From contig JAFCIZ010000009.1 of NCBI GenBank assembly GCA_017871115.1, positions 1-64,000 of the forward strand: 64,000 nt of DNA, given 5' to 3'. This document shows, piece after piece, positions 1 to 64,000 of the stretch. Under the pieces are notes generated by a model. The model did no database searches. It saw only the letters and a list, made by a program, of their open reading frames with translations, and was not told the DNA's origin. Position 1 is the stretch's first letter, and each line of letters begins with the position of its first letter. A program made the position numbers and the translations under genes. The DNA comes from Cunninghamella blakesleeana. Taxonomy: Eukaryota; Mucoromycota; Mucoromycetes; Mucorales; Cunninghamellaceae.

Positions 1-1046
1 TACATACCATTCGGAATCGTTCTTAGCCTGAGAGATAAACCACCCTTTGTCTTTAATGTACATTTGGTTCCTAACATAGTCAGTTGGACTGACAGAAGTT
101 CCTTCTCGATCTTGAGAATGGTGGAGTGTTCGATAGATCCATATGCCGTGTTAACTTGATGATATCCTTATAATGGGTCGATGAAATAACATATCCCATT
201 ACCCTTCTATGCCATTCGTATTCATACGGAAATATATCCTGGTATTAACTCGGGTCTTCCCGACTATGGTCAATGGAAGTCCATCTATCTTCCCAGTTTC
301 TGCGTTCTTATACAATTTCGACCAATGATTCCTAGTATATTTCCCATACCACCCTTCTTCTTGATGAATGATAATGTCTCTCCGTTGTCACCTATAACAA
401 AATCTCTATTATTGTACCTTATCATAAGTCTTTCTGAAGATGATTCTTTGGTACCTTAATATATCTTCTGCCTGATATCTTTAGGAGAATAGGTTACAGA
501 TAATTTTCTCCTTAACGATGGAACTTCCACAATCATATCAAGAGGATTATCTAATTCATCAAATAATCTACTTAGAGGTGATATAACATGGGATAGTTTT
601 ATACACCATCGTTACTGTATCTATTCTATATTCTGGTATAGAATCTGTCTTTTTTATCAGATGATACAGCCTATCTTCCTCTGCCACTTGTAAATAGTAT
701 TGTCTAACTATATTTCCTACTTGAGAAATCAGCTCTTTGGACTCAGGATATTTATCTTTATATGTGTAATCCACTATACCCAATTTACCCATATGTATAA
801 CAATACATTTATGGGCTAACATTGGGTGGATATTATATTTATTCATCAGATATTTCCCCTTCTTTATCATGGACATATCATCATCCATATCTTCTACTAA
901 TTTTATACATGATGTAATGGTTCCGTTGTATCCATCCAGATCTTTCATGGTTGGATAACTACCCTTTTTTCATCTAACATATACAGAACTTCCAACGTAC
1001 ACTTGAGTTTATGTGCACTTTTTAAAGCAAGTTGAACAACATCCAT
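1..1046 (-). pseudogene. VETF-L-like gene, first copy: 5' part only, frame-broken
   Basis: This is the N-terminal part of the 788-residue protein annotated at 35318-37684, read leftwards from the start codon complement at 1044-1046 and cut by the window edge. Only one stretch (568-948) stays in frame for long. Single-base losses and gains against the second copy fall in short homopolymers, for example near 50-60, 95, 125, 230, 450 and 600. These are best explained as sequencing error, so this should not be counted as a separate or decayed gene. Confidence 0.85.
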
Positions 1047-1088
1047 TTCCAGGACGGACGCACCATTCTACCAAACAGAATCTTCACA

Positions 1089-1522
1089 TCAAATTACCAA
1101 TCGATAATACGTTTCTTCCTCTCTGAGAATACCGATTACATCGCCTTTACTAAAGTTATACCATCTGGCTACTGGATCTGTTGATAATATCTTCGGCAGT
1201 TGATGTAACTTGATGCAATATTTACTGAGGATTTCATCTACATTGTCAGTGCATACAGTATGTTTTGGTACTAATATATTGTCTAATGGTGATAATATAA
1301 GCTCTCTTTCCATAAAGACTTTCGAAGGACATGGATTCTTATTAATAATTCCATGTACTATGATGATATAATTTCCTTCATATCCTCTGTTATTAACAAC
1401 ATTTTCTACTCTGGAAACTAATGTGTCTGATCGTTTCGTTTCATCTACGTCATCATCATATATGTGTAATATCTCTATGTCTTCCCCCTATTATCCATAA
1501 AAAACTTTATAGCCCTTTCCAT
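1089..1522 (-). pseudogene. RPB5: RPB5, first copy, single frameshift
   Basis: Same gene as 37727-38161. The conserved C-terminal RPB5 region (74 residues, 1089-1313) is intact. The 5' end is out of frame because one C is missing from the C run near 1487-1491. Probably an assembly error rather than a real lesion, because the second copy is open throughout. Confidence 0.85.
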
Positions 1523-1565
1523 CTTTAAGAGATACATGTTATCATCAGAGATATACTGGTAATAA

Positions 1566-1741
1566 TCAATGGTTATTAAATTCTGCAATAATATTATTAT
1601 TTGTACTTAATGGAGAGAAAGATACGAAACCTCCTTAGATTTGACATCCTTGATGACATCCATAATTTTATCATCTTTACCTACAGGATATGTAACCAAA
1701 GAAGCACCGAGAACAATATAAAAGATGGTAAATAAATGCAT
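1566..1741 (-). pseudogene. Small secreted protein gene, first copy, frame-broken
   Basis: First copy of the gene at 38207-38383. A T is missing near 1630 (aaacctcc against aaaccttcc) and another base near 1550, so the frame is lost after the signal-peptide region. Same explanation as for its neighbours. Confidence 0.6.
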
Positions 1742-2004
1742 GTTAATTCGCAAATATATTGTTGGCCAATCAACTCTAAAAATCATATGGATATAAATTC
1801 ATATATTTTATACAATTGTATTGCATTGTCTACTCCACCTCTGAGCCTTTTTAAAAGTCCATTAAACTAATGTTAAACAGTGTGTACTCCAACTCACCAA
1901 GTTAGGTCCATAGTTATAAGGTCCATCCCTATTTTTTCTCCATCACCTCAACTTTTCTGACTCAACTTTTAAAATCGGTTCGAATTCTGACTTATGTAGT
2001 TTCC

Positions 2005-2038
2005 CTTTTATTTCTAAGTACGTACTTAGAAATAAAAG
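2005..2038. repeat. 34-bp perfect palindrome of the R element (core AAGTACGTACTT)
   Basis: A perfect dyad centred between 2021 and 2022. It starts with CTTTTA and ends with TAAAAG, around the core TTTCTAAGTACGTACTTAGA. The same sequence is present in all R copies I could read. It could extrude as a cruciform or be bound by a dimeric protein. Function unknown. Confidence 0.9.
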
Positions 2039-2105
2039 TAAGGTACCTTACCAATCACTTTGCGTTAAAATGGAAATATAGTTCCTTTGGTGATGAAATG
2101 GTGTC

Positions 2106-2141
2106 CTTTTAATATTTAGGTACGTACCTAAATATTAAAAG
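2106..2141. repeat. 36-bp perfect palindrome of the R element (core GGTACGTACC)
   Basis: A second perfect dyad, centred between 2123 and 2124, with the same CTTTTA..TAAAAG ends and the same GTACGTAC centre as the first, but with a different stem (AATATTTAGG). The two palindromes are about 100 bp apart centre to centre. The segment between them (containing tcactttgcgttaaaatgg) is strongly conserved in all copies. Confidence 0.9.
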
Positions 2142-2297
2142 TTGGACTACCTAAGTTCAATTTCGAAGTGGTTTCGAAAGTTGAGTCAAGAATTATGAGG
2201 TACCGAAGAAAAATTGGGATAAATTACCTAACTTAGGAACCAATTTGGTGAGTATAATCCATACATGGTACTGCATTAGTTTAGTAGACTTTTAAAA

Positions 2298-2420
2298 GAT
2301 CATAATATATGGGATATATATTGCAAAGTTCACATCCTTCAGAACCAAGTTGGACAGAAGCCTGAATGGTTCTTTAATGGAGGAACTTTTTAAAAGATTA
2401 GACATTATCTAGGTTTCTAA
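2298..2420. other. Non-coding tail between R1 and lectin-type gene
   Basis: About 120 bp without a gene. It holds an inverted-repeat pair, AAGTTC and AGAACC matched by GGTTCT and GAACTT (about 2319-2387), which could fold as an interrupted hairpin. It ends in TTTTTAAAA just downstream of the lectin-type gene's stop. A diverged relative of this tail follows R6 (28844-29008), the other minus-orientation element. Confidence 0.5.
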
Positions 2421-5400
2421 TTAACATGAGAAATGTACACCACAAGTACCACATTTACCACCTCTACAACTTTCCATACAATCGTTGTCAGTCTTACAAC
2501 ATTGTCCAGCTTTACCCGATCCGTCACCTAATCCTGGTTTACCACCTGTACAGATAGGTGTTGGTGTTGGTGTAGAAGTGTATGGAGGAATAGTTGTAGT
2601 AGCTCCGGGAGTAATAACATAGGGGTCCTTATTTGTATCAGTAGTACATCCTTCCTTGGTCCATTGAGATCTCAATGTAGTATCTGTGAGGGTTCCCCAA
2701 TTAACATTAGGAAGATCTTATATTTATCTTGAGCAATAGGACAGTTACAGTTATTATCTGTGTATAATTTACGAATGGCGGTATCTGTGAGAGTTCCCCA
2801 CTTACCAAGATGGGTCTGTAATGGACTTACATTATACTTGAGATAAGTACCAAAGCATGCACAATCATAGTAAATCCATTGTCCTTGAATATCCGATTTT
2901 CCTTCCATTGTTCCCCATGTCTTGAAGGGATCTACTTTGTAAGTATCCATTAAATTCTTACATTTGTCTGCAATACTCATAGGATTAACGTATGGATTGG
3001 TTGGTGTAGGAGTAGGAACAATCGTGGTAGTCGTAGTTGTTGTAGTTGGTGTTGGTGTTGGTTTTCGGGTGCCTTTTCTCCACATGGTAAGTAATAATAA
3101 CGGAACTCATCATATACACGAACAGAGTAGCTGAGGTTGCGGTGGGGCCATGATTCCCACATGGTTTGGCCATCCACATTTGTTACTTCGAATTTACCTT
3201 CGTCTGTAATAGAGGCCTTATATGGACCTGATTTACGATTGACAGTATTTTCACCAAACCAATACCATCTGTTGGTTGAATCAGATAATGCAATATCACC
3301 TTCGCTGTTAAGAAGTAAGTGGAATGGACCTGTTGTATTGGTAACACCAGCTGTATAAGAGTTCCACATGGTTCTTTCTTCGTCCTTGATGATAAAACCA
3401 CCTTTGCTATCGAGAATGGCCTTGAATCTACCATTTGGTGATTGCATACCGGTACCCGAATGAAGGAAATCGGTACAGTTTACATCCTGAGATACAATAC
3501 TTGATCTTTGTGTATTAATAGATGGATTGTCCAAGATGTAGTTATGAGGATCTTTTGTTATACCAAGTCTGGGATTGGGAGTAACAAAATCGGTAGGAAC
3601 GAGATAGTTCTGTTGATATTTATAACCTCTGGAATTAGCATATGAATTACCAATCTCGTCGAATGTACACCAAATCTTAACGTAGGCAGCATCATACAAG
3701 GACAATCTTCCGTTGTTGTCGAGGATGAGCATATAATTATCTATGGTACTGGTTGATCTTCGTGGAGAACCAACGGTGAAGTTGTTATATATATTCTGAG
3801 TTGACCATGATTCTACATAGACATTAGTGAGATATGGAGGTTTGACCTTACTCCACATATTAGCGGTTTCAATGACGAAATGACCACGAGAATTAATACG
3901 AGCACGATGTTTATATGGACTACCCGCTATAGCCTTGAATGGTGTACCTCCACTTTCCCACACACGAACAGTACCACGACTAATAATAAGATTACCTGTG
4001 ATATCCAATGAGGCAGTGAATTTACCATCTTCAGATACTAAATTATTGGAACCATCTAAGACATCACCGACGACAAGACTATTCTTGATTGTAGCTCCAT
4101 TGATATCGTCATTTACAGTAACGAAAGGTAACGCATCCTGTATAACGTCGTTACAATTAACTGTACCTATCATGAAACAATCAAGTTCAGACTTGGTTTT
4201 CTCAGTAAATTTAGCAAGGGATGCAAATGTACGTTCGGCTGTTTGTTCTTTTGTATCAGCACACAAGAAGGGCATAACAACCATTTCAGCAAGAGGGAAA
4301 CATGCGAGTTTACCACATTTCCCTGCTTCAACTGGAATATCCATACCAATGTTTGTGCCTACAACCTTTGTAACGGCGGTACTATTCTGTGTACCAGTAC
4401 CGTTTTCACCACCATTTGAAGTAGACCAATCCTTTGTGTTAGAAACTTCCACGGTCTTGGTAACCATCCTGGAATTGGTTGTCGAATCGCTTCCCCCTTC
4501 TGTAGATGTATGACTATCAGAAGTTCCTACTGTCTCCGTAGTAAGATCTTGGTTTTGTTCGGAATAGTTATCTTCCTTGATACAGAATCTTGACTACCGA
4601 GTGAAAGATTCCAACTATCTTCGCTAGTCGTACCATCACTCTTGGATGAACCTCCTCCTTTACCTCCTTCAACAGTACCAGTCGCAGTAATACCACCAAA
4701 AAGACCACCACCTTGCCAACCTACAGTACCTGATGAACTCACATGCCAATTATCATTGGATTCTTCGTTATGTGATTTACCTTGACTTCCTCCTTTGCTG
4801 ACATCCAATATTGTAACTTTGTTGGTAGAATCGCTATATCCTTTGTTGATTATAGATCCAGTAGTACGAGCACTGGATGATTCATCCGTATGTGTATCAG
4901 ATATACTCCAAGATTTTTCTATTGTATGAGATATAGTATCAGATATACTACTACTATCGGAAACAGTGCTGCTCCCACCTAATGTTTTGACATAATTAGT
5001 AGATGAACTACTAGACACCAAATAGGTAATAGCGTTTTGTTGAGAAATTTCCTTACTAACAGATATCTTACAATTGGTTGATGTTGGTGGACATGGAAGA
5101 CCAGGTTGAGGAAGATAATAGGTCTACCTATACCTGTAATGTAATTAACATTCTCTACACCAATAAGATCTACATGATATGGATTAGCCAATGGATTAAC
5201 ACTAGCTTGAGGTACACACCATTTAGTATAATTCTTTAGTTCACCCTCAGCTCTCTTATCGAGTTTATGATTGCCGTGATCAAGCTTAAGATCCTCACCG
5301 TATGGAAGTATCAACATATCCTTCAACACACTGATATCTACTGGTTTACCATCCTTGCCCCTAAGACCGCTGACAGTAATGTTAGTTCCTGGAATAACAC

Positions 5401-5467
5401 CATAATCCTTGACAGCACTCACTGCTGTTAACAGAAATGCTATAGCAAAAGATATCTTCTTTACCAT
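2421..5467 (-). pseudogene. Secreted lectin-type surface/effector protein, first copy, several frameshifts
   Basis: Same gene as the intact 1016-codon frame at 39064-42114. Here it is split into five overlapping frames (2421-2675, 2672-3085, 2977-4467, 4527-5021, 4979-5467) by single-base losses, for example G near 2710 (taggaag against tagggaag), T near 3062, and bases near 4550, 4572 and 5109. All lie in homopolymers and none recurs in the second copy, so I read them as sequence errors. Confidence 0.85.
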
Positions 5468-5530
5468 TTGTTTGTTGATCGTTGGAAAGAAGATGACATG
5501 TCTCCTAAAAAATCACGATTTCTACATTCA

Positions 5531-5884
5531 ACGATTCTAATTCTTGACCTAGTTTTAAAAATTAGTGGAAATTGAACTTAGGTAGTCCAACTTTTAATAT
5601 TTAGGTACGTACCTAAATATTAAAAGGGCACCATTTCATCACCAAAGGAACTATATTTCCATTTTAACGCAAAGTGATTGGTAAGGTACCTTACTTTTAT
5701 TTCTAAGTACGTACTTAGAAATAAAAGGGAAACTACATAAGTCAGAATTCGAACCGATTTTAAAAGTTGAGTCAGAAAAAATGGGGTGATGGAGAAAAAA
5801 TAGGGATGAACCTTATAACTATGGACCTAACTTGGTAAGTTGGAGTACACAGTGTTTAACATTAGTTTAGTAGACTTTTAAAAA
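5531..5884 (+). repeat. R2: R element lacking its left arm
   Basis: Both palindromes and the right arm (ending TAGACTTTTAAAAA) are present. The left outer arm of about 100 bp is missing, and the left boundary is a diverged stretch containing TTTTAAAAATTAG (5553 on). Orientation is plus, opposite to R1, so R1 and R2 flank the lectin-type gene as inverted repeats. It sits upstream of that gene's start and downstream of gene A's stop. Confidence 0.9.
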
Positions 5885-5905
5885 TACTATGATCTTCAGA
5901 TAAAG

Positions 5906-7194
5906 TTATGACCAGTTATGATCAACTGCTGCAGCAAATACATTATTATCCATATCGTTAGTATCCTTTATCTCATCTCCGAATCTCATAACATGAGCTA
6001 TGATACATTGTACTTGTTCGATATAATCACCAAACATCTCACTGGAATAATACACCCTTCTATTATCTTCATCAAAGGAAATACCTACTCGTCTACATGC
6101 TATATGATCATAGCTATAACATCTATTAGATATTTCTATATATTCTCTCTCTGTTTTCTTCTCTCACTATAACATTCACATCCCATTGATATATAATCAG
6201 ATTGGAGGATTCTATGAAATCGTGTAAGTCCTTCGAATCCGATACTATCTTGTACATAATCTTCATACTCTAAATTATCATCGTTGATATACACTCCAGT
6301 TTCATTGATAATGGATATGATTTCATGCTTATTATTTGGATCTTTCAGTAGGCTCCTATCACATCCCTCTATGTTGAAGACAGCCTTGGATAAATTCCTT
6401 TTTTCCTCCGTCATATCCATAAAGTTGAGACCATCAAACATATGTAGATACATTATAACTCTAAAGCTTGAATAATAGCATGATTCCATTGGTATAGTAT
6501 ATTTTTTGTATTTCTCTCCTATGTATATAGCCTTCTTTATATCACCATGACATCTCGCTAATACCCATACTATATCGGTTAGAAAATTTGGATTCCAGTC
6601 CCGACTACATCTTTTTTCTCTCAATATCTCCTCTAATGTATCTATATTTCCACTATGTGCCAAATACAATATCCTACGATTTATATCGTTTCCTATATAT
6701 TTCAAGTAAATATCATTAGGTGTCGAGTATGCAATTGCATCTTCCATAGATACCATCCTAAGAGGGTTCTCTATTGTTAAATCTAATTTGTCTAACATGC
6801 CCAACTTGTAATATATCTTGTTCATAAACAATGGATCGTATTTCATACTAGCCTCTATGTTGTTTATACCCCACATGAATTTCTTGTTGGATGATTCTTC
6901 GTAACCGTGATTTGACTCCCAACTCTCCCATATATAACATACCCTGATTATAACTTTAGGATCCATTGTACAATGGATAGCTTTCCATATAGCCAATTGG
7001 GGTGGAATGTATTTCTTCATAAACATAAGGGTTCTTATATCGGCACCCCTTTCTAATACCTGACCGAGGATAACCATAATGCCTCCTTCTAAAAATAATT
7101 TATCTCTATCCGGTTCTACTTTCAACACATAATGGATGTAGCATCCAGATAAGTTGATTATCCTTTCTTTTACTTCTTCGGGTATTTTTTCCAT
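5906..7194 (-). pseudogene. Gene A (helical-repeat-like protein), first copy, one frameshift near the 3' end
   Basis: Same gene as 42554-43843. One T is missing in the tcttct run near 6160, so the frame closes at 6136 with an altered C-terminus (352 codons instead of 429). The remaining 3' part continues in another frame to the original stop at 5906. Probably an error, since the second copy is open. Confidence 0.85.
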
Positions 7195-7290
7195 TAGAAT
7201 TCGCTGATTTATTACACCTTACAGGTTACATGTGATTTTTCAAGTTGTTTTGTTATATCATTGGGAGTTTTCTTATTCAAATCAAATCAT

Positions 7291-9542
7291 ATGAGGAAAA
7301 CATATTTACTGTTGTTCGTTCTATTGCTATTCTCTATAATAGCTGTAGATGCCACATGGAATTCAGGAAATGCTAAGGATGACTTTCCCTCGTTAGTTGA
7401 ATTAAAGTTCTTGATAGAAAGGAGCGGTATGGGCAAATATCTCGATATATTGCCTGATTTCGATCCGTCTATTCCATCGTCGAGTGCAGTCATATTTTTC
7501 CCTAGTAACGATAAAGCCCAAGGTATCAAACCGGGAGAAACCGTTCCAACTGCCGATGGTTCTCATTATGTAATGGTAGATGCAATGGGTAAAAGATTAG
7601 GACCATCGACATTTATTAAATACAACCAAAAGTGGGAATACTCGGGGGTTCTCCTATCTGAAACAAAAAGAACGGTGTATGAATACAAGAGAGATATCCA
7701 AGTAACCGGCTATAATACTCCTCAAACCCAAAGGGCTCATGTATTATATTATGGTGTACCTGTAGAAAAGACAGACTCGGTTACCTTAGGTGTTAGATCT
7801 ACAGAATATTCTATAATTAGAGAAAGGGCTGTGAAAGCTATTTTAAATCGTACAGAAAGATAAAGGATGTACTCTACAATACGCGGGTAAGTTATACACC
7901 TAGACCCACGACCAATAATCCTAATCCAGTTCCTGTTGTAGATTATTTTATTATGGCATTGGGTGATATCGAACCAACTCGTTACGATAGGGTTCGTGAT
8001 AAATTTCTGACAGTAAGTCAAGAGAGAAGAAGAGAATTATCGGATTGGATGTCAACTAATGGTAATAAGGTTGGTGTTTTGGTTAAAGATAAAAACGGAG
8101 ATTTCATCGTAGATCCTACTAAGAGTGCAACACCACGAGATTTTCAGGCTATACAGAAAGTTGTATATTTGGTTACATCACATGCCCTACCATTTATTAG
8201 AGTAGCAGAACTTGGAAAGGTTTTATGGGATTATAGTCCTACGGTAGGAGGACAAGTCAGTCCATATAATAAAGGTGGTAATGCATGTTCGTCTATGCCT
8301 ATAAAGAAAAGAGAAGCTTCTGCTACACTTAGAAAAAGAGATGGTGGTGAATGTGCAGCACCTATAGAATTTTCTGATAATTTGGACGAGGTAGAAGAAC
8401 CTACTACAAATGAGGTTATTATACAATCCGAATTAGAAGCATGGTATGGCATTGGTGTAAAACTTGGTATCAACGAAATCGGCGCTGACTATGATTGGAG
8501 TGAATTACCCCGTGATTGGGATGATTATACGGAACTTTCTCATGATTTTATCTTCAAAGGATCCACCGACATAGACGATGCCTTAGATAAGGTTGAAAAT
8601 GCCATAAGAAAGAAATTAGTTGATGCACCTGATGATGTAAGAGAAGATGTATCCAAGGCTTTGAATAAACTCAAGAGGGCCATGAGACAAAGAGTGGCCA
8701 ACTTAAAGGCCCAAGGTGGAGATATTAAGATAGATAAGCAGATTACAGCTGAAGCCAGGAAGAATTCTATGGATCGTATATCTGAAGAGTACTATAATAG
8801 ATTTTTATCTACAACCGAGGCTGATGAGATGAAAACATCAGAAGATGGAATTAGTATAGATGAAGATATGTTGGAAGGTCCAGTAGAAACCCCTTTTGGT
8901 GATTATAGAGACCCTGATAGTATTAGATCCATTGCAGAAGCTGACTTTATTTCCGCTGTAAGAGAGGCTGTACCTGAAATATTTAGCGACGGTGCTGAAA
9001 ATCCTACTAGTGTTGAACAAGGTGGTGAACAACTCCTTGATGCTACCTCTATGGTTCCTGGATCCACTAGTTACATGAATGCATTAAATAAGATCCAAGA
9101 GAAGATTAGAGCAGTCATGGATCGAGATGGAAATAAGATAAGTAAGTTCCAATACAAACGTATTAGAGCAGGTATGATGAGACTTAGAGAAGCTATCCTT
9201 AAGAGACAGGAAGCCATGGAAAAGAAGTTAGAGAATGGAATGGAAATAAAGGACTCTGAAGTTATCGACTATGAGAATGCCTACAAGACATACACCCAGA
9301 TTTATGACAAGATGCAGGAGTTTGATGCCAGTAAGTTAGATCCTACAGGAGATTCAGGAACCGAATTGGACTTTGCTAGTGATCCAGGATTTACCTTTAA
9401 GATGGAGCCTATGAAGACATTCAAGGCTACAACCGGTCTCTCTGTTAAATATGCTGCAGGTATTAAGGCCATTAAGGACTCTTTACGTAAGTTTACCAAA
9501 GGTAGAGTATCCTCTACACGAGGTACCATGCGCAATAGATAA
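7291..9542 (+). pseudogene. Gene B (secreted coiled-coil protein), first copy, one frameshift
   Basis: Same gene as 43940-46195. Relative to that copy, three bases are missing near 7648 (frame-neutral) and one A near 7826. This closes the first frame at 7863, and the remainder continues as a 529-codon frame (from 7953). The break falls in an A run and is not shared by the second copy. Confidence 0.85.
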
Positions 9543-9574
9543 ATAACCTATATGATATCCTATCTATTATGACC

Positions 9575-10022
9575 TTTTAAAATCCACTAAACTAATGCAG
9601 TATCATGTATGGATTATACTCACCAAGTTGGTTCCTAAGTTAGGTAATTTATCCTAATTTTTCTTCGTTACCCCATAATTCTTGACTCAACTTTCGAAAC
9701 CACTTCGAAATTGAACTTAGGTAGTCCAACTTTTAATATTTAGGTACGTACCTAAATATTAAAAGGACACCATTTCATCACCAAAGGAACTATATTTCCA
9801 TTTTAACGCAAAGTGATTGGTAAGGTACCTTACTTTTATTTCTAAGTACGTACTTAGAAATAAAAGGGAAACCACATAAGTCAGAATTCGAACCGATTTT
9901 AAAAGTTGAGTCAGAAAAAATGGGGTGATGGAGAAAAATTAGAGATGAACCCTATAACTATGGACCTAACTTGGTGAGTTGGAGAACACAGTGTTTAACA
10001 TGAATTTAATGGATTTTAAAAA
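9575..10022 (+). repeat. R3: R element between convergent gene B and PolB
   Basis: Full-length element in plus orientation. The inverted ends have drifted (left TTTTAAAATCCACTAAAC, right TTTAATGGATTTTAAAAA). Both palindromes are intact (9729-9764 and 9835-9868). Because both flanking genes read into it, its terminal TTTTAAAA motifs lie where termination signals of both genes are expected. Confidence 0.92.
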
Positions 10023-10038
10023 CATTAAGAAATATGCA

Positions 10039-12393: not shown

Positions 12394-12417
12394 AACCTAG
12401 AACTGTTATCAATAGAA

Positions 12418-52268: not shown

Positions 52269-52325
52269 GTTAGTTACTGATAGGGGTTAACCTTCTTCGA
52301 GGCATTAATCAAGTCTCTTCAAAAC

Positions 52326-53342: not shown

Positions 53343-53392
53343 AAAATGGATTAACCATCTGACATGATAATATATGAGAATATATCATATAT

Positions 53393-53998: not shown

Positions 53999-54048
53999 TT
54001 GATAATGGAGCGTCTCTGCATCCTCTATTATCCATCATTCCTCAAATT

Positions 54049-54294: not shown

Positions 54295-54519
54295 ATGGAT
54301 GTCCGTCCCTTAGTGAATCTTTTTATTTGGAGATCTCGAGATAAATTTCATCCATGAAATTTTCATATAGTACAATAGTATATCAATTCCCTTTGATCTA
54401 TACTGTCCCCGTTATCTCCTAATTCTTGTATCCATTGAGATATATTCATATATACATCAGGATATATTTATATTTATATCGTTTATCAACATTCCATAAA
54501 GGATCTATCCATCATGACC
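54295..54519. other. Non-coding region upstream of the 81-aa gene, second copy
   Basis: Same as 17640-17864: overlapping dyads AGATCTCGAGAT and ATTTCATCCATGAAAT, then an ATAT-rich stretch up to R5. No gene seen. Confidence 0.5.
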
Positions 54520-54969
54520 TTTTAAAAGTCCACTAAACTAATGTAGAACTGTGTATGGATTATACTCACTAAGTTGGTTCCTAAGTTAGGTAATTTATCC
54601 CAATTTTTCTTCGGTACCCCATAATTCTTGACTCAACTTTCGAAACCACTTCGAAATTGAACTTAGGTAGTCCAACTTTTAATATTTAGGTACGTACCTA
54701 AATATTAAAAGGACACCATTTCATCACCAAAGGAACTATATTTCCATTTTAACGCAAAGTGATTGGTAAGGTACCTTACTTTTATTTCTAAGTACGTACT
54801 TAGAAATAAAAGGGAAACTACATAAGTCAGAATTCGAACCGATTTTAAAAGTTGAGTCAGAAAAAATGGGGTGATGGAGAAAAAATAGGGATGGACCTTA
54901 TAACTATGGACCTAACTTGATGAGTTGGAGTACACACTGTTTAACATTAGTTTAGTGGATTTTTAAAAA
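54520..54969 (+). repeat. R5, second copy
   Basis: Same as 17865-18314, both palindromes intact. Confidence 0.93.
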
Positions 54970-54983
54970 GGTCATGATATATA

Positions 54984-57701
54984 TCAGAGAAATAGGAATT
55001 TCTGTTCAAGGATCATCTTATGTTCTATTTCCTGTACGATATCTCCTGTTTTACATCTTGTCATAGTATCCACAAAGGTTCTGAACATAGATGGGTTATT
55101 GTGTGCTAGGTCTCCCATGTTTTTATATCCATAAGGTATCACATATTTATCATAACCCGTTAAGTATTGCATCATGGATGAAGATGGTGGAATATTGGAA
55201 TGAACGTTGACAATCTGCCCGTATAATAAGGATAGATCTGCTTTGAGTATGGAAGAAAGACATCTCCCTTTACGTATAAACCTTTTATCTCCCTTGGATT
55301 TTTCTTTTCTCTTTTCGAAGATACGTGTTCTTAACCTAGACTTATTATCTATAAGGGAAATAATTAAGTATATATCTTCTTTCTTGTCTATCTTCCTCAT
55401 GAACTTGTCGTGTTTATCCTGCATATAGTGTACAACATCTTTTTCCCTATCTTCTGATAGCTGATCTACATACCTCCACTTCCCATTATTTAGATATCTG
55501 AGACGATGTTGGAGCATGCTTGTCTTAGGTATAGGTAATACTGCAGTATACGCATCTCCTGGTACACGATATCCCATAACATGATATATCCTTCCTTGAT
55601 AAACAAAGAATAATGCCTCAAACATACGTGCTACATCCTTATCAAGTTTATCCTTAACGATGTTCTCAACAAAGGAAATACGATACAAAAAGGGCATATT
55701 ACGCAATGAGTTAACCTTTTCCAATATGGTATAATTAGAGAATTTCTTATAGAAAAACTTTCTGTCAAACTCGGGTATGACTGGCTTTATCGGTGCGTAT
55801 ATCTGAGTTATAGCCTTAGATACTGATATACAGAAGAATGGCAATGATGGATCGTCGGTATAATATATCCTCCCATTGCTCTCTCTTAGGTAATATTTCT
55901 TTCCTATTCGATAATTTCTAGTGATCATCCTGTATATAGTTTCCATTGTGATACTTCGATGGACTCCATGTTTCTTCATGACTTTCTTAGTGGCTCTATC
56001 GATGGTTATGGGTATTTTTATTGTCTTTAACAGAAGTTTAATATAATATTCATAGAATGTGTCCATATAATACATGATAAATGTACTTGGATCCCCATCT
56101 TCGGAGGTATATCCAATATATCTGTCAATGGATTTTCTCTCTAATTTCTTCTCCATAGCGCGGATCCTTTCTTGCTTCTTGTTACATATCTGTAGTTTGT
56201 ATATATCGGTACCTTCTATAGTATCATTCATACCCTTATACATGGCAACGTGAATGTAGATGTCCACAGTCCTTTCTTCTTCGGGTAAATCATCATGAGA
56301 ACCACTACGTATAACTCTACCGATGGCTTGATCCACAGTAGAATCATTCCAATGGACGGTCATCACATGGAACATACGTACGTTGAGTAATGTAATAGAT
56401 TCACCTATGATTTTACTTCCGATAAGGATCTGTACATATTCTCCATATCTATTTGCTGGATGATTAAAACCTTCTAATCTGTCTGATTTATTGGGTACCA
56501 ACATCTGATCTCCCACACAGAATGTATACCTTTTCTTCTTGTTGATAGTATCGAGATGATCTCCTGTATATAGTTCATACCCATGAGCTTCCAATATATT
56601 GGCCAATAGTAGCAATCCTGAACCCAATACTTCCTCTATATATATAAATATAGAACCTCTAGTAGATGATGTCTGAATAAGGTTCATCAACTCCCAATAT
56701 TTGGAACTACATTGTCTCAGATTTGTTCCTGTTAGATATTTAGCATATTGTTGTTGTACACGATAGAAAACATAACGTAGAACACGTCGAGAACCTGTTT
56801 TCATTGACGTGATAATATGTTGATATCTTACTGGTTTCATGATGTTATCGTTGAATAATTTCCTCCCATACATACCATCTTCGCCTGGAAAGCAAAATAG
56901 GGAAATATGCGTTAAGGTCCTATAAATATCTTTAGGTGTCCCTTTAGTTTCTTCTAAGATGTGACATTCCTTTTGATGATCTATCATATAGGATGGATAG
57001 ATGGTCATTGTACCGTATGTCTCTCCATGAAATATTTTCCTAGGTCTATGCCTTATTTTGGCATTATAAGATACCAACCCGTCGAAACATGTCGGGTTGT
57101 CAGTGAGAAGTCTCATTGTGGATTCCAATTGTTCCACATCATTCGTCATTGGAGTTGCCGTTACGAGCAATATTCTAATGTTATTTGGAAGTTTTGTTAC
57201 CCTCTCCAACGATGTATATACCCTGTCTTCTCTAAGTTTTCTTACATTGTGTATCTCATCGAAGACAAAAACATGATTGCTATACCTTTGTGTAACTTGA
57301 TGATCTGACATTTTCCTTATGGTATTATGTAAGGACATATAATGGTTCATAGAGAATATCTTATTGTATTCGGATCTTCTTATGGGCAAATCAGCCATCT
57401 CATAATAGAGATCTATCTGTTTTCTAAAGTTTTCCGTACCAGAATTTCCTTTCGTGATAACCAAACATCTCTTCTTATCATGCATATAATGGTCCACTGC
57501 AATAGATATACAGATGAGGGATTTCCCAGATCCTAACATATGGAATAATAGGATACCCTTATATGGAGTATAGGGCGATAGATATCTCCTCACGAATTCC
57601 TGATGTGGGTATAACCCTTCTTTGTTGTATAAATCTTGGAATTCCACTTTCTCTATAAGTTCCTTTGAAATGTTCTTTGATATAATTGGATAATGATACA
57701 T
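54984..57701 (-). CDS. D6/D11-type SF2 helicase, second copy (905 aa)
   Basis: Identical to 18329-21046, offset exactly 36,655. Motifs HMLGSGKS, FDEIHN, TATPM and QAIGRVIRSG present. Confidence 0.88.
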   Translation of the reverse strand: MYHYPIISKNISKELIEKVEFQDLYNKEGLYPHQEFVRRYLSPYTPYKGILLFHMLGSGKSLICISIAVDHYMHDKKRCLVITKGNSGTENFRKQIDLYYEMADLPIRRSEYNKIFSMNHYMSLHNTIRKMSDHQVTQRYSNHVFVFDEIHNVRKLREDRVYTSLERVTKLPNNIRILLVTATPMTNDVEQLESTMRLLTDNPTCFDGLVSYNAKIRHRPRKIFHGETYGTMTIYPSYMIDHQKECHILEETKGTPKDIYRTLTHISLFCFPGEDGMYGRKLFNDNIMKPVRYQHIITSMKTGSRRVLRYVFYRVQQQYAKYLTGTNLRQCSSKYWELMNLIQTSSTRGSIFIYIEEVLGSGLLLLANILEAHGYELYTGDHLDTINKKKRYTFCVGDQMLVPNKSDRLEGFNHPANRYGEYVQILIGSKIIGESITLLNVRMFHVMTVHWNDSTVDQAIGRVIRSGSHDDLPEEERTVDIYIHVAMYKGMNDTIEGTDIYKLQICNKKQERIRAMEKKLERKSIDRYIGYTSEDGDPSTFIMYYMDTFYEYYIKLLLKTIKIPITIDRATKKVMKKHGVHRSITMETIYRMITRNYRIGKKYYLRESNGRIYYTDDPSLPFFCISVSKAITQIYAPIKPVIPEFDRKFFYKKFSNYTILEKVNSLRNMPFLYRISFVENIVKDKLDKDVARMFEALFFVYQGRIYHVMGYRVPGDAYTAVLPIPKTSMLQHRLRYLNNGKWRYVDQLSEDREKDVVHYMQDKHDKFMRKIDKKEDIYLIISLIDNKSRLRTRIFEKRKEKSKGDKRFIRKGRCLSSILKADLSLLYGQIVNVHSNIPPSSSMMQYLTGYDKYVIPYGYKNMGDLAHNNPSMFRTFVDTMTRCKTGDIVQEIEHKMILEQKFLFL

Positions 57702-59674
57702 TATATAATCTAGGAGGATGTGATGCCATTAAATTACGATGTATCGTATCATTAATCATGGATTATCATCAGATAGAAGGTGCTGAATTGGAGTCACGAA
57801 TAAAGGGTCCAATACTACATCCTGCCAATGTATTAAGACTATTATCCAGATATAGCGACTGGGAAGGTCCTTTAGAATATGAGGAGAGAAGGAGTAGAAT
57901 CATGGGTATTATCGGATCTGTTTATAGATGTATAGATGATGGTCCCATTATTTTAAAGACAAAGATAGATACTCAGAAGCATAAGGATGATTGGTATAGC
58001 ATTGTGTTATCCAAGGAGGAGGTACAGGATCCGGAGACTATAACCCAAGTGAGTAAATACTTTAGTACAACCAAGAAGAAAAGATGGAGTCGCTATGAAA
58101 ATAACGGGGTACTAAGGCTCGATGTTACTTACTTCAATGGATCATATCAGGTAGAGATAGAGTCTCTAATTGGTGACACTGAGGGGATAGAAGATTATAC
58201 AAAAGAAGTTATATCCATTCTTCAAGATTCTCCTGAATATATCTCAAGGAAAAGATATGAACTTGTTAAAGACCATATCATGAAGGACACAATTGTAAAA
58301 CATCGGTATCAAAAGCCCATTACATTAACATATCCGAGGTTTAAAGAACTAATGGAAGGGGAATGGTGTATGACGTTAAAGATGGATGGAATTAGAACCT
58401 TCTTGGTTGTATTCAACGGTATGATATACAGTATCGACACTAATGCTCATGTAAAGTTACTCAAATCCAGAATACCTTATTATACGTCACCAAATTATTA
58501 TATCGTTGATTCCGAATACGTAGATGGAACATATCATGCATTTGACATCTTTCACTCACCTAACAGCAAAGATGATGCAATATTGGATGAACGTTTTAAG
58601 GAGGTGGAATATGTTGTGAACGATATATTAAAACCATCCGGTATATCGGTTGTTGTCAAGGAGTATATTCCTTTGTCATCACCAGAAACACGGATTCAGC
58701 ATATTCGCCAATTTTGGTCCAATCAGCCAACATCAGATGGTATTATATTTATAGATCCTAATGGAACATATATGGATGCTAGGATATGGAAATGGAAACC
58801 AGAGATAACTGTGGATATATTAGATAACGATGGAATGACTGTACAGGAGATGGTTGTCACAGGAGAAGATGGGAGCATGAAATTCCTACGTTATAGATAT
58901 GATAAATGGAGACCAAACTCTGAAGAAACTATTAAAGCCAACATAAGGGAAGGGTATCCTTTAAGACATTTGTGGGATGGTCAAACATGTTTCCTTATGA
59001 GGAAGTACCACAATAAGGTTAAGAAGGGATTACTCCATAAGTATATAGGGAAGTCTTCCATATTGTTGGATATAGGTAGCGGACAAGGTGGAGATCTGAA
59101 TAAATGGTCTAGTGGTGTATCCCATGTATATTGTATAGAACCGAATAAAGAATCCAGAAAGGAGTTCAAGAGGAGAATCAACGAAGGGGAATTTCCATTT
59201 GTATGTCATCTGATTAAATATTCGACCAGAGATGCAGACAGGATATGTGATAAGATTAAAAGAGGGAGTGTACATGTTATATCCTTATTCTTTTGTTTGA
59301 ATATGTTCACCAAGGAAGAGGATTGGAAAGGTCTCAAGAAGATCATTCATCATGCTGCCAATCCTCGTCGTTGTGTTATCATTGGTACATTCATGGATAT
59401 GTCCCTTATAGATGGAGAAGTTAATATACCTAACATATGTCGTATTCATTGGACATCTCCGACTGAGTATATATTTTCTCTATATGGAACCAGATTAGGA
59501 GAGGAACAGAAGGAAATTGGTGTTACATTAGATAAGATAAATAGTTGGTTACCTCATGGATTTTGCATCAACAAAGAAAAATCTAAGATATTAGACGGTG
59601 GTGATAATAAGATGACAGATGTGGAGAAGAATATATCCTCTATGTTCAGATGTTTTGTGGCATCCAACTTTTAA
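57686..59674 (+). CDS. mRNA capping enzyme, second copy (662 aa)
   Basis: Identical to 21031-23019, with triphosphatase, KxDG guanylyltransferase and SAM-binding methyltransferase regions. Same start ambiguity: the alternative Met lies at 57758. Confidence 0.95.
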   Translation: MDNDTLYNLGGCDAIKLRCIVSLIMDYHQIEGAELESRIKGPILHPANVLRLLSRYSDWEGPLEYEERRSRIMGIIGSVYRCIDDGPIILKTKIDTQKHKDDWYSIVLSKEEVQDPETITQVSKYFSTTKKKRWSRYENNGVLRLDVTYFNGSYQVEIESLIGDTEGIEDYTKEVISILQDSPEYISRKRYELVKDHIMKDTIVKHRYQKPITLTYPRFKELMEGEWCMTLKMDGIRTFLVVFNGMIYSIDTNAHVKLLKSRIPYYTSPNYYIVDSEYVDGTYHAFDIFHSPNSKDDAILDERFKEVEYVVNDILKPSGISVVVKEYIPLSSPETRIQHIRQFWSNQPTSDGIIFIDPNGTYMDARIWKWKPEITVDILDNDGMTVQEMVVTGEDGSMKFLRYRYDKWRPNSEETIKANIREGYPLRHLWDGQTCFLMRKYHNKVKKGLLHKYIGKSSILLDIGSGQGGDLNKWSSGVSHVYCIEPNKESRKEFKRRINEGEFPFVCHLIKYSTRDADRICDKIKRGSVHVISLFFCLNMFTKEEDWKGLKKIIHHAANPRRCVIIGTFMDMSLIDGEVNIPNICRIHWTSPTEYIFSLYGTRLGEEQKEIGVTLDKINSWLPHGFCINKEKSKILDGGDNKMTDVEKNISSMFRCFVASNF

Positions 59675-59848
59675 AAAATTAGCTTTTACCCCCTATATTT
59701 TTGTCTTCTATTGGATATTGTCTAACGAGTGGAAGCATAAAAACAACATAGAGACATAAATACAATACATATATAAAAGGAATGAAATGGGGACCTAGGG
59801 GGCATAAGGCATAACTTTTTTTATTTCGTAATTAGAGTTAAATAAGTT
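59675..59848. other. Non-coding gap with CCCCCTA / TAGGGGG pair, second copy
   Basis: Same as 23020-23193. The G/C clusters are at 59688-59695 and 59789-59802. Confidence 0.45.
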
Positions 59849-61774
59849 TTAAAAATCCCTATTCAATAATCTTACTCCTTCTACAATACCATCACGTATG
59901 TTATATCCTAAGGCATTTAGTTCGTCTCTGAATACCTTGTTCTCCACAGGTCTTCTTGATGTATTATCAGACACCCAATTTCTATATTCTTGATATACAT
60001 GAGTTAGTGTTGTCTCTCCGACGCTATCATAGACGACCCTATCCTTGATAAATCCTAACACAGTGTTGTTCCATTCTATATATTCATCTGTTGCACGTCT
60101 TATTGCCTCAGGAATATAAAATTCTTTCATATCCTTAATACGTTGGTATTCCTCCATTAACATTTCCAAAAATACATCTGCATATTCCACTATTTTATGC
60201 ATTAACCGTTTGTCCATTAGATGATCATCCGGACCAGGATGTTTGGGTAATTTCTGATGGAATGTACTAACAAAAGGAATAACAACAAGTCTATTCTTAA
60301 AAGCCTTATCTATGCTTGGAATTTCCAAGATGGAATTGGATACAATAATTAGTTTAAACTTAGGCGTAAATGCCTTTGGAGTACTATGAAAAAGCTGGCG
60401 TGCAGTAATTACATCACCACCAGTTAATTCTTTTACAATACCAATACGTATCATCTCATTGGGATTTGGTTCTTGAAGGAAAACAGCTAACTTACCATCA
60501 AGAGCTAATAACTGTGGTGATGCATTCTCTGCTGAATTTCTTTTTCCTGTAATTAAAGAAGTTGCTGCAACTGTTACATAATCACCTAACGCCTTAGATA
60601 ATAACCTTTCTATCATAGACTTCCCATTGTTTCCCTTACCCCACCATATATATATGTGTTTATCTTTATTTCCACCTTCTAATAGGCTTGCACAAGACTG
60701 GATAAAAAAATGTAATACCTCTGCATCTGGAAACAATGTAGATAATATCTTTATTAGGATAAATCTACGACCCTTATCTAATGATGATACATCGTTGTGA
60801 GTCGTCATTGATATATAGTCCTGAGGGAATCCTTTTCTAATTATGTTTTTCTCTACATCATATACCTTTCCATTTGCCATACCTATAAGTTTGGAATTTG
60901 CATTGAGCCTAGAAAGGAATCTATTATCGGCTAATCGATGAATAAGATCCTTCAACACTCTTTCTCTGGCACAATAGGAACCAAGATATCTGGCCACATC
61001 TTCAAGATCTGATGATTTCAGGAAATCCACAAATATCTCACTGATCTCCATCCAAAGATCGTTCGTTGCTGCACTCTCCCATATACCATTGTTGAATCTC
61101 CAAATATCTCTACCATTGTTTGTTGATACATAACGATGTACATATGTATCATATAACATAGTGCATATAATACCCTCTGAATGAGATCGATTCCTATGAT
61201 CGTGATGTAACCCAAGTTCCTGCACTCTATATCCTGTTAATGCAGCCATGAAAATCTTATGAGTATCAGGAGACAGCCTTGATAATTCTCCCTCCATTTC
61301 CAATCGTGAACACGGTATGGGATCTATACCTTCGCATATAACCTCCCCCATTAACAAGGATGATTGATAGTTTATCATACCAAGTATCTTCCCACGTGGA
61401 TATGAAATTGTGGAATTATACGCAATGTTTATCATTGGATTGGCAGATGAGATAGCAGAACGGATATAATCTTTCCCCATGTTAATATAATCTATTATTT
61501 CTCCAATGGTAACATCCTCTAATTCTAGATCATATGGAATATACGATAGGTAATCTCCTAGAAATTCCCTTACAGTCCTAATATATGAAGGATAAACATC
61601 TATTAGAATAAGATCTTTACCTTTCCAATGATTTCCACTTCCTCCATCTATAAATGGGAAAAATATAACTCTATCTCCAGTATAATTTTCCTCATAAACA
61701 AGATGATAACCTCGCTGCCCTTCAGGTATGTCTTTTATGTCGTTATAGACAAACATTCTTCTTGATGTATCCAC
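59849..61774 (-). CDS. D5-type SF3 helicase, second copy (641 aa)
   Basis: Identical to 23194-25119. The absence of an N-terminal primase domain is seen again, and the upstream 219-aa gene leaves no room for one. Confidence 0.93.
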   Translation of the reverse strand: MDTSRRMFVYNDIKDIPEGQRGYHLVYEENYTGDRVIFFPFIDGGSGNHWKGKDLILIDVYPSYIRTVREFLGDYLSYIPYDLELEDVTIGEIIDYINMGKDYIRSAISSANPMINIAYNSTISYPRGKILGMINYQSSLLMGEVICEGIDPIPCSRLEMEGELSRLSPDTHKIFMAALTGYRVQELGLHHDHRNRSHSEGIICTMLYDTYVHRYVSTNNGRDIWRFNNGIWESAATNDLWMEISEIFVDFLKSSDLEDVARYLGSYCARERVLKDLIHRLADNRFLSRLNANSKLIGMANGKVYDVEKNIIRKGFPQDYISMTTHNDVSSLDKGRRFILIKILSTLFPDAEVLHFFIQSCASLLEGGNKDKHIYIWWGKGNNGKSMIERLLSKALGDYVTVAATSLITGKRNSAENASPQLLALDGKLAVFLQEPNPNEMIRIGIVKELTGGDVITARQLFHSTPKAFTPKFKLIIVSNSILEIPSIDKAFKNRLVVIPFVSTFHQKLPKHPGPDDHLMDKRLMHKIVEYADVFLEMLMEEYQRIKDMKEFYIPEAIRRATDEYIEWNNTVLGFIKDRVVYDSVGETTLTHVYQEYRNWVSDNTSRRPVENKVFRDELNALGYNIRDGIVEGVRLLNRDF

Positions 61775-61817
61775 GATTAGATAAAAGTTTTTAAAAATAT
61801 ACTTCAGTAGGTAACCA

Positions 61818-62477
61818 TTAGTCCTTATCTCTCAAGGGGAAGATAACCTTTTGTTCTGCATATACCTGAGACACGGATACGGTAATACGATACTCTTCTC
61901 CATCTTCAGGTATGACGTAACCAAAAATAAGTGCTGGTCTAACAATAGATCTACCAATGTTTCTGATATCCAATTGTTCTTCCTCATTGTATGCAGATGT
62001 ATAAACACGACCATCTTTGTTCTCGATGAGACGTGCACAGAGTACATGGCCTACAATTTCCTTGTCATCGTTGGTGAGATCATATAGTCCCCTTATTTGG
62101 ACATTACATTTTCCGTTGTTGTTCTTTTCTATCTTCTTCTTGACAGCTTGTTTCATCCTTTCTAAGGTATCATAGAATTCTTGATGATATTCGTTGTCTG
62201 TATCCATATACAACTTGATAATATCACGACCCAATGATGTTTTGTTTCCTGTTTTCTGTACGATGTATACATCCTCTTCTACTCCATTGGTTCTGAAAAA
62301 TGCAGCCTTATCTCTAACACATGTCAAGGTAAGAGGTAACTTTACACCTTTGTATTTATAACGTATAGAAACTCGAGTGACATTCTTGTTTTCTACTTTG
62401 TCTCCAATATCTATTCTCTTCTCAGAAAAATCGGGTGGAGTAACCCATGATATATCCTTGATATCAGGTAATGACAT
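61818..62477 (-). CDS. 219-aa protein, possible ssDNA-binding, second copy
   Basis: Identical to 25163-25822. Confidence 0.8.
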   Translation of the reverse strand: MSLPDIKDISWVTPPDFSEKRIDIGDKVENKNVTRVSIRYKYKGVKLPLTLTCVRDKAAFFRTNGVEEDVYIVQKTGNKTSLGRDIIKLYMDTDNEYHQEFYDTLERMKQAVKKKIEKNNNGKCNVQIRGLYDLTNDDKEIVGHVLCARLIENKDGRVYTSAYNEEEQLDIRNIGRSIVRPALIFGYVIPEDGEEYRITVSVSQVYAEQKVIFPLRDKD

Positions 62478-62581
62478 ATTAGTTACTTATGGTTCCACCT
62501 ACCCAATATATACTGTAATTATATCTCAGTTTGATTACTATACATAAGTATATCATAGTCCTCCTCATTGGCAAACATAAG

Positions 62582-64000
62582 ATGGATCTGTTCTACAAGA
62601 AACATGGGTATATGTCTAATATAGATACAATATTCCATGAGCGTATATCACCACCATATTCTACATCTATTGTACCACCGGAGATAACCTCTCAGGAAGC
62701 TATCTCCCAGAAGACATCCTACTTGGCAACGGTACTCCCCGATGGATACCATATCCCTTGGATGACTGAAGAGGGTTTGTTTATCATAGGTGGTGTAGAG
62801 AAAGTACCTCTTATACAGGAACTAAGAGCAAGAGAGTCGATGTGGTGTTCCATGGATGGTGAAGATGTTGCCATAGTTCAGACAAGATTTCCTTTAGCAC
62901 CATTTCCAATAAGAATGCATATATCCAATGCATCTGATATATACATCGATGTCTCTGCATTTTCCACACAGATAGAAGAACGACTTGGAGGAAAAAAGGA
63001 GCCTACCATGTTCCACGGTGATACATCAGGGAATATACAAAAGAAGAAATATCTTGTTGTGTCCTTCGAACGCATCATATCGTTATATAATGGAAATCTA
63101 CAGAAGATTATCTTAGATCAGAAGGTTGATTCTACCGTTGCTATATTCATGATGTCTTCACTCAAACCATATGAAGGCAACGTTGTTCCTATTACCAAAG
63201 ATATATTGGATGATTATATATTCAAAGGTAAACCCAATGATAAGTCTGTTATATATACTGTATGCCAGATGGTGGAAATGGGAGTGAAGTTGTACATGGG
63301 TAGGATACCACCTACAGATAGAGACCATATTGGCAATAAGATGTATAGATCATCAGGTGCATTTATTGGATCTCTGTTGGATAGTTTGGTTAAATATAAT
63401 AAGCCTTCAGCGATGGAAAAAGCAATAGATGATAGCATCATATCCATCTTAAGGACAGGTGTAATGTCTGTAAATGGTCGTATGTATCCAAAAATGGTCA
63501 TTCAGGCTGGTAGACGATCCACATTCGATACCATATCTAGCATTAGGAAGATTGTTATTCCATGCGACGAAAATTCTGCATCCAGAAAGATGAGACAGCT
63601 TCATCCATCTCAATCAGGGTATATATGCCTATCTGAAACACCAGAAGGTAAGTCAACAGGTCTGGTAAAACATCTTGCTATTACAGCAGTTATCAGTCCT
63701 TATGTTGATAGAAGAGATATATATAGATACATAAAGAAATATCTCAATGAAGATGGTAAAATACCTGTATTTATAGACGGTATGTGTATCGGCTATTTAT
63801 CCCATTATAGATGGTGTTATCGTAAGTATATCAAAGCTAAACATCCGTATGCATCTGTGAACATGGATGAAATAAACAACAAACTATATATACGTACATG
63901 GAGTGGAAGATTAATGTGTCCGATGTGGACTGGAGTAAGTAGACCGTACGATACATGGGATGACATGATAAGGCGTGGTGTAGTAGAATATAGGGATGCA
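62582..64000 (+). CDS. RPB2: RPB2, second copy, cut by the window end
   Basis: Same start (MDLFYKKH) and sequence as 25927 onward, with about 473 codons before the window ends. It includes the fork-region SETPEGKSTGLVKHL but not the active-centre motifs, which would lie beyond the edge. Confidence 0.95.
   Translation, partial: MDLFYKKHGYMSNIDTIFHERISPPYSTSIVPPEITSQEAISQKTSYLATVLPDGYHIPWMTEEGLFIIGGVEKVPLIQELRARESMWCSMDGEDVAIVQTRFPLAPFPIRMHISNASDIYIDVSAFSTQIEERLGGKKEPTMFHGDTSGNIQKKKYLVVSFERIISLYNGNLQKIILDQKVDSTVAIFMMSSLKPYEGNVVPITKDILDDYIFKGKPNDKSVIYTVCQMVEMGVKLYMGRIPPTDRDHIGNKMYRSSGAFIGSLLDSLVKYNKPSAMEKAIDDSIISILRTGVMSVNGRMYPKMVIQAGRRSTFDTISSIRKIVIPCDENSASRKMRQLHPSQSGYICLSETPEGKSTGLVKHLAITAVISPYVDRRDIYRYIKKYLNEDGKIPVFIDGMCIGYLSHYRWCYRKYIKAKHPYASVNMDEINNKLYIRTWSGRLMCPMWTGVSRPYDTWDDMIRRGVVEYRDA

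Follow-up and report, generated by a model that had tools for sequence, protein, structure and literature searches.

The closest described relatives in organisation of the element reported here are the virus-like elements (VLEs) of yeasts. These are linear DNAs with terminal proteins and inverted repeats, of which the pGKL and pPac1 pairs reach at most 13.5 kb (PMC4431711, PMC6211774; here and below, statements from the literature follow the portions of the cited papers that were available). Their RNA polymerase is reduced and unlikely to use TFIIS (PMC4431711, PMC6211774), and in their genes stem loops were found and no common 3' sequence motif (PMC6211774). According to the available text of PMC10640383, no double-stranded DNA virus infecting fungi is known; the same text describes a chromosomal region of 1.5 Mb of nucleocytoplasmic large DNA virus (NCLDV) type in Rhizophagus, and cites reports of NCLDV-like PolB genes in basal fungi. 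Here we describe a 36.65-kb unit from the fungus Cunninghamella blakesleeana, contained in positions 1 to 64,000 of contig JAFCIZ010000009.1 (C9; these 64,000 nt are the window). In our judgement this unit is fairly likely to be an autonomous capsid-less DNA element of the fungus, circular or head-to-tail/permuted and probably cytoplasmic. The literature searched, preprints lying outside its scope, gave no account of an element of this kind, and we provisionally regard it as undescribed.

The assembly comprises 31,936,959 bases in 12 contigs. Self-alignment of C9, which is 74,196 bp long, resolved a unit repeated head to tail for two rounds plus about 910 bp, in good agreement with the ~36.7 kb proposed in a first-pass annotation of the window.

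1..36650, no strand: first copy of the 36.65-kb unit (self-alignment)
36651..64000, on to C9:74196, no strand: second, cleaner copy of the unit (self-alignment)

Positions 1-27345 (copy 1) and 36634-64000 are 99.89% identical across 27.3 kb. The 29 differences between them comprise one mismatch and 28 gap positions, 25 of the latter being bases absent from copy 1. Sixteen of the 29 fall within the opening 1.8 kb, a pattern as in unpolished sequence, and the gene models of copy 1 in window positions 1-1800 are unreliable. Frameshifts present in copy 1 and not in copy 2 leave the secreted proteins of 1016 and 751 aa (see below) intact in copy 2 only. C9 starts and ends inside the unit, with no host DNA flanking it on C9 and no terminal inverted repeats in either the unit or C9; circular, head-to-tail and permuted molecules would each assemble into such a contig, and the sequence does not separate them. 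Searches of the whole assembly with the D5-type helicase, the secreted protein SEC751 and the repeat DNA matched C9 alone, while a PolB family search returned C9 and 15 mostly short pieces on four other contigs, which we take as host polymerases. The GC content of the unit is 36.1%, compared with 25-31% in eight host loci, a very AT-rich level reminiscent of Entomophthorales or Glomeromycotina. Chitin-synthase matches (16 exon matches, on four contigs) and a host Pol II RPB2 exon that scored higher against chains of S. cerevisiae, S. pombe and other yeasts than against human-type ones point to a fungal host. COX1 had no match in the assembly, from which the mitochondrial genome is apparently absent. 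We count 23 genes in the unit (SEC2 taken as one), or 24 with an 81-aa open reading frame (ORF); the genes are open frames without introns.

The genes for replication and related functions are given here together with two conserved or unassigned neighbours; L043 is an environmental relative described further below.

46693..49047 (copy 1: 10039-12393), minus strand: PolB (Pfam 3.4e-87; tree)
23194..25101, minus strand: D5-type superfamily 3 helicase (family matches, motif; found on C9 alone)
32561..33394, minus strand: primase-like protein (motif only)
14039..14662, plus strand: UDG-like protein, UDG fold, motif A GQSPY (Pfam, motif)
25163..25822, minus strand: p219, for which single-stranded DNA-binding protein is a guess (Pfam scan)
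49072..49632 (copy 1: 12418-12978), plus strand: p186, conserved protein (49% identity in L043)

PolB matched PF00136 and PF03104, carries a YGDTDS motif and had no match to PF03175, the protein-primed PolB family, at E 0.01. The D5-type helicase matched DUF5906 (1.2e-6) and NCBIfam primase_Cterm (1.5e-40) and has a GKGNNGKS motif. These two genes, and likewise the split RPB1, RPB2, RPB5, TFIIS-like protein and D6-type helicase named in the first-pass annotation, all gained family or PDB matches. Its primase is kept here as primase-like: motifs (RVDID, Cys-containing end) are conserved in a 41%-identical relative, and the protein matched nothing in Pfam and no PDB chain at an E value better than 0.16. 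The UDG-like assignment stands narrowly, at a Pfam UDG score (2.7e-5) barely above cut-off, and motif A reads GQSPY in both the unit and L043. Family-1 UDG enzymes have an aspartate in motif A, and poxvirus D4 is a UDG-type structural factor; considering GQSPY against that aspartate, the UDG-like protein may be a structural factor as D4 is.

The transcription genes are as follows.

25927..28392, plus strand: RPB2 (Pfam, PDB scores)
33402..35321, plus strand: RPB1 N-terminal part, NADFDGD motif (Pfam; relatives)
15671..16687, plus strand: RPB1 C-terminal part (Pfam 9.6e-10)
37727..38161, minus strand: RPB5-like subunit (Pfam RPB5_C 5.8e-17)
13780..14040, minus strand: TFIIS-type zinc-ribbon protein (Pfam 5.2e-13)
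18329..21046, minus strand: D6-like superfamily 2 helicase, GSGKS motif (PDB match; 59% identity in L043)
21103..23019, plus strand: mRNA capping enzyme with ELESRIK and KMDG motifs and an N7-methyltransferase domain (Pfam, motifs)
35318..37684, minus strand: 788-aa DUF5757 protein, earlier called VETF-L, unproven (Pfam 2.6e-26)

For RPB2 (Pfam 4.2e-80), archaeal and Pol II chains in the PDB gave scores of 308 and 272 bits and viral ones lower scores of 202 and 138 bits, values that neither show nor exclude NCLDV descent. RPB1 is encoded in two separate genes, with Pfam matches of 2e-39 for the N part and 9.6e-10 for the C part. The N-part gene has the same end point in L043 (60% identity) and in Podila clonocystis P0126, which argues that the split is real and old. 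A sequencing error as the source of the split was ruled out, as both copies and two relatives agree. The best PDB match of the D6-like helicase was a chain named VETFS (2e-21), followed by NPH-I (1.3e-9). Among the three domains earlier ascribed to the capping enzyme, the cap methyltransferase was found by Pfam (5.5e-7) and the other two were recognised by motifs only. The 788-aa protein had no PDB sequence match at E 1, and with DUF5757 as its one family match the suggestion of a probable VETF-L is unproven.

Pfam scans that together covered all 24 genes, at E limits from 0.01 to 10, gave no capsid, A32 or viral-protease family above cut-off, and in this respect the first-pass annotation, which had recognised none of the three, was borne out. 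One match below cut-off was seen, between the TFIIS zinc ribbon and phage GpA_ATPase (18.8 vs 25.6 bits). The strict Walker A pattern is found in D5 alone among the unit proteins. Pox_A32 had no match in the 31.9-Mb assembly, where the control for this search matched in 2 of 14 genomes. Capsid_NCLDV (PF04451) likewise had no match in the assembly, a weak result given that it was also silent in 14 of 14 controls and 11 of 11 viral records.

How does the unit compare with the described systems? Like pGKL1/2 and pPac1, it has its own RNA polymerase, a capping enzyme, a D6/D11-like helicase, no known virion and a killer-type layout (see below). Unlike the yeast VLEs, it is 36.65 kb long, lacks terminal inverted repeats, and carries D5-type and primase-like genes, RPB5, TFIIS and a common gene-end motif. 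Where VLEs are linear DNA with terminal inverted repeats, the unit lies in head-to-tail copies; where they have a protein-primed PolB, it has a PolB of the PF00136/PF03104 type; and the upstream conserved sequence ATNTGA, present before each VLE gene, precedes 7 of its 24. The likeness to yeast plasmids drawn at first pass thus extends further than proposed, to a secreted lectin-type protein and paired genes, but breaks down at the D5-type and primase-like genes and the lack of terminal inverted repeats. With Nucleocytoviricota the unit has in common PolB, a D5-type helicase, a capping enzyme, a D6-like helicase, RPB1, RPB2, RPB5, TFIIS and a UDG-like protein. At the sequence level (Pfam, Walker A and assembly searches) the A32-type packaging ATPase of that phylum was not found, nor was a major capsid protein detected by Pfam, and the 70-kb lower limit given for Nucleocytoviricota in the available text of PMC10640383 is about twice the size of the unit. 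Endogenous NCLDV-like regions in fungi also place NCLDV-type genes in fungal assemblies, but the unit is separate and small. Given these departures from the defining VLE features, and searches that gave no packaging ATPase of the Nucleocytoviricota type, we rate the unit as a separate kind of element, one that would work like a yeast killer plasmid using NCLDV-type machinery. A line of descent between the two groups, as suggested at first pass, is a possibility.

A TTTTAAAA-type signal (T4+A4+) was seen at the ends of 20 of the 23 genes, taking as gene end the interval from -10 to +80 nt of the stop codon; RPB5, UDG and Zn76 are the genes without a site. T4+A4+ is its own reverse complement, and it occurs 31 times in the unit, 27 of them in non-coding DNA, where about 1.1 would be expected. 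The reversed order, A4+T4+, occurs neither in the unit nor in L043. Of these sites, 21 lie inside the palindromic repeats described below; of the ten outside, one closes the 81-aa ORF and the other nine each stand at an end among the 23 genes. These ten non-repeat sites reach 11 genes (12 with the ORF), compared with a random mean of 0.6 and a maximum of 5 in 5000 trials. In L043, T4+A4+ was found at 9 of 9 genes (random mean 0.4, maximum 4 in 5000 trials), with one of the nine sites (9332) away from gene ends and one site common to two genes; since the TFIIS site there sits within 127 bp that repeat the opposite end of the contig in inverted form, 8 of 8 is the safer count. We read T4+A4+ as a putative termination or 3'-processing signal usable from both sides, as in the following example, and stem-loop termination of the VLE kind may also operate at the gene ends of the unit.

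35316..35324, no strand: T4+A4+ site common to two convergent genes (pattern search)

The T4A4 signal at the end of the 81-aa ORF (window 17394-17639) suggests a genuine gene; the ORF was admitted to the count on that ground alone, giving 21 of 24.

A PolB search gave 878 matches, of which 120 were listed, and a tree was built from those 120 and the window (quick search, LG+G4). Among the matches listed, the window groups with 47 relatives in a set of 48 (SH-aLRT 100); it forms a long branch, and the tree rows are mostly without names. This set contains all five fungus-named rows of the tree, those of Mortierella sp. GBA30, Linnemannia elongata, Podila clonocystis, Bifiguratus adelaidae and Ramaria rubella. 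The longest contig measures 33-37 kb for six of the 47 relatives among the matches listed (34,875; 36,641; 36,706; 36,135; 35,213; and 33,074 bp), five are on larger contigs, considered below, and the remaining ones are on shorter contigs. The environmental relative, L023/L043, is a 17,169-bp contig, the sole close relative from a viral collection, and has nine unit genes at 41-60% identity: PolB and RPB1-N at 60%, the helicase at 59%, UDG at 54%, p186 at 49%, the secreted lectin-type protein and TFIIS at 48%, and the capping enzyme and primase-like protein at 41%. Its gene blocks are ordered differently from those of the unit. Positions 1-127 and 17043-17169 of L043 are exact inverted copies, to be explained either by a fold-back in assembly or by a genuine repeat that lies at two gene ends. 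Queries with RPB2 and D5 found no relative among viral contigs, and PolB patterns had no match in prokaryote genomes.

The likeness to killer plasmids concerns a group of genes for secreted proteins and their partners, listed with one further small protein.

39064..42114 (copy 1: pieces at 2672-5467), minus strand: SLP, 1016-aa secreted lectin-type protein (signal-like N-terminus, KR site, Cys-rich end)
43940..46195, plus strand: SEC751, secreted 751-aa protein with KR/RR sites, candidate killer effector (sequence features)
42554..43843, minus strand: P429, without signal peptide, candidate immunity protein (sequence features, paralog P280)
29009..31242, minus strand: SEC2, second SEC751-family gene (frame broken in both unit copies)
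31176..32018, plus strand: P280, shorter P429 paralog (sequence comparison)
13058..13255, plus strand: 65-aa protein with one hydrophobic segment and PPSY, a PPxY-type motif (sequence features)

In SLP the N-terminus is signal-like, and the protein further has a KR site, a region rich in Ser/Thr, lectin-type domains and a Cys-rich end that is kept in relatives. A 496-aa part of it matched B_lectin (2.7e-8), while the whole 1016-aa frame had no Pfam match at E 0.1; B_lectin was recognised in four of eight members of the family, and the family profile matched PDB chains of putidacin L1 and pyocin L (1.3e-9 to 5.4e-8). Among 7998 candidates scored, eight homologs of 43-52% identity were found, namely one Podila gene model fused to RPB1 and seven other proteins; these came from the 1016-aa copy-2 frame, and the 496-aa copy-1 fragment as query gave no homolog, likely an effect of its length. 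The public Podila clonocystis gene model BGZ82_011604 (P0126) joins SLP to the RPB1 N part, and this fusion argues that a piece of such an element is mis-annotated in that assembly. Over their first 200 residues SEC751 and SEC2 are 37% alike, a figure that rises to 76% for residues 224-751. P429 and P280, which are divergently placed neighbours of SEC751 and SEC2, are 55% alike over 148 N-terminal residues, much of the middle being absent from P280. Because SEC2 is frameshifted in both copies, its cassette may be decaying. SEC751 was not found in L043, itself a fragment, and the 65-aa protein was not seen in that fragment either. In the yeast toxins zymocin and PaT, one conserved subunit binds cell-wall chitin and the toxic subunits differ, and PaT immunity is conferred by the sole product without a signal peptide (both from the available text of PMC4431711). 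The unit, with a conserved secreted lectin-type protein and two variable cassettes of a secreted protein and a partner, resembles the killer plasmids in layout, and by this analogy we tentatively infer a toxin function for the SEC proteins.

Seven copies of a ~470-bp sequence, one of them partial, are dispersed in the unit and are 93-98% alike.

1842..2330, minus strand: palindromic repeat R1 (repeat and palindrome search, as for R2 to R7)
5560..5900, plus strand: palindromic repeat R2 (partial)
9545..10034, plus strand: palindromic repeat R3
13258..13735, plus strand: palindromic repeat R4
17848..18326, plus strand: palindromic repeat R5
28385..28895, minus strand: palindromic repeat R6
32036..32548, plus strand: palindromic repeat R7

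When the assembly was searched with the repeat DNA, all 30 scored matches were on C9. Each repeat holds perfect palindromes of 36 bp and 34 bp centred on TACGTA, and all seven lie within 90 nt of a gene 3' end, six of them within 15 nt. In being dispersed palindromes they are like the homologous regions (hrs) of baculoviruses, a likeness of layout. The hrs have been proposed as origins, and those of AcMNPV have imperfect 30-bp palindromes (available text of PMC6669502); unlike them, each repeat of the unit has two perfect palindromes and stands at a gene end. L043 has different dispersed repeats in its gene-end gaps, including the gaps behind the helicase and SLP genes, which hold repeats in the window too.

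We propose that the element would replicate by its primase-like/D5/PolB set, with the palindromic repeats serving as possible origins or recombination sites. Its own RNA polymerase would transcribe the genes, with the D6-like helicase as a putative initiation factor and its own enzyme capping the messages, and transcription would end at the T-run/A-run signal, in both directions between convergent genes. A cytoplasmic location is probable, because the genes are intron-free and the element has its own capping enzyme and polymerase. Persistence would depend on inheritance and hyphal contact and not on virions, helped by a possible killer system. Tentatively, by analogy with the yeast toxins, SLP may bind the target wall, with SEC751 and SEC2 as variable effectors and P429 and P280, neither with a signal peptide, as immunity proteins; because both cassettes lie between repeats, recombination could swap them. 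A broader picture, which we offer as a speculation, is that of a widespread and so far undescribed class of circular capsid-less NCLDV-type plasmids in several fungal phyla, with bidirectional T-run/A-run gene ends, gene blocks shuffled through dispersed repeats that double as origins, and a two-part killer system for persistence in populations, made of a conserved lectin-type carrier with swappable effector/immunity cassettes.

Several observations weigh against this interpretation. The unit is known here from sequence alone, and the lack of a capsid gene is judged by sequence profiles. No toxin domain or family was recognised in SEC751 by the Pfam scan. L043 has no perfect palindrome of at least 16 bp, which indicates that the palindromes are not common to the family. 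T4A4 is common in AT-rich host loci too (22 in 36.5 kb), so what is distinctive is the placement of T4+A4+ rather than the word itself. No strong upstream motif was found, there being no gapped word in at least 9 of the 24 genes; ATNTGA (7 of 24 upstream 100-mers, against a background of 3.5, sd 1.9) and TGATT (9 of 24, against 3.1) are mildly enriched. Lastly, the five PolB relatives on larger contigs (among the matches listed) measure 54,482, 71,154, 75,848, 86,917 and 95,100 bp; the second and third may be dimers, as they are twice 35.6 and 37.9 kb.

Four other explanations were considered. The unit could be a true virus with unrecognised virion proteins, SLP acting at the surface or in attachment and an unassigned protein building a vesicle coat or a particle of non-standard kind. 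The eight SLP homologs retain 43-52% identity, that search giving no other, and SLP together with the 65-aa PPSY protein and its hydrophobic segment could serve budding; moreover, SLP, SEC751, P429 and the DUF5757 protein are all large enough for a capsid protein. Yet no capsid or A32 family scored above cut-off in the Pfam scans of the 24 genes, and SLP and the SEC proteins start with secretion-type signals, which are unusual for a double-jelly-roll capsid protein, and we regard a virus as unlikely. We give a distinctly low probability to a segment or defective form of a larger fungal NCLDV with its capsid genes elsewhere. The relatives on 54-95-kb contigs would fit such a genome, as would the 1.5-Mb NCLDV-type insertion in a fungus (PMC10640383, available text), whereas the six relatives on 33-37-kb contigs speak for a small unit and Pox_A32 has no match in the 31.9-Mb assembly (control 2 of 14), the Capsid_NCLDV null being weak.

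Integration as a tandem array, or a contig that stems from some other organism, would account for the head-to-tail copies and a composition unlike that of the host, and the missing COX1 match means that the contigs are not everything in the cell. Against this, C9 has no flanking host DNA, no further copy was found in the genome, the copies differ (28 gap positions, one mismatch) as unpolished sequence does, and PolB relatives carry fungal names, so that we consider this very unlikely. A yeast-type linear cytoplasmic plasmid, oddly assembled, is the explanation that we disfavour most and hold to be highly improbable: its set of functions is similar (PMC6211774, PMC4431711, available text), but the unit lacks terminal inverted repeats, its PolB is not of the protein-primed family, and its gene set includes D5-type and primase-like members, TFIIS and a longer RPB1 divided between two genes. 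With the autonomous capsid-less element as the preferred interpretation, the puzzle is by what route small plasmids without a capsid came to be run by NCLDV-type machinery. In culturable Mortierella-like fungi, a clade of these elements would open capsid loss and plasmid versus virus descent to direct testing, along with a giant-virus-type transcription system of small size and a killer system that may be new.

Beyond the relatives described above, RPB1-N also matched 14 other contigs of the viral collection (L045-L058) at 25-38% identity. These contigs are up to 322 kb long and have few other genes in common with the unit, and PF04451 was silent in all ten of them that were searched. Some PolB relatives outside the fungal set are long forms with Pfam PF14890, which we take to be an intein-type domain, and another of these relatives is the eukprot protein P0116, presumably from Spirogloea.

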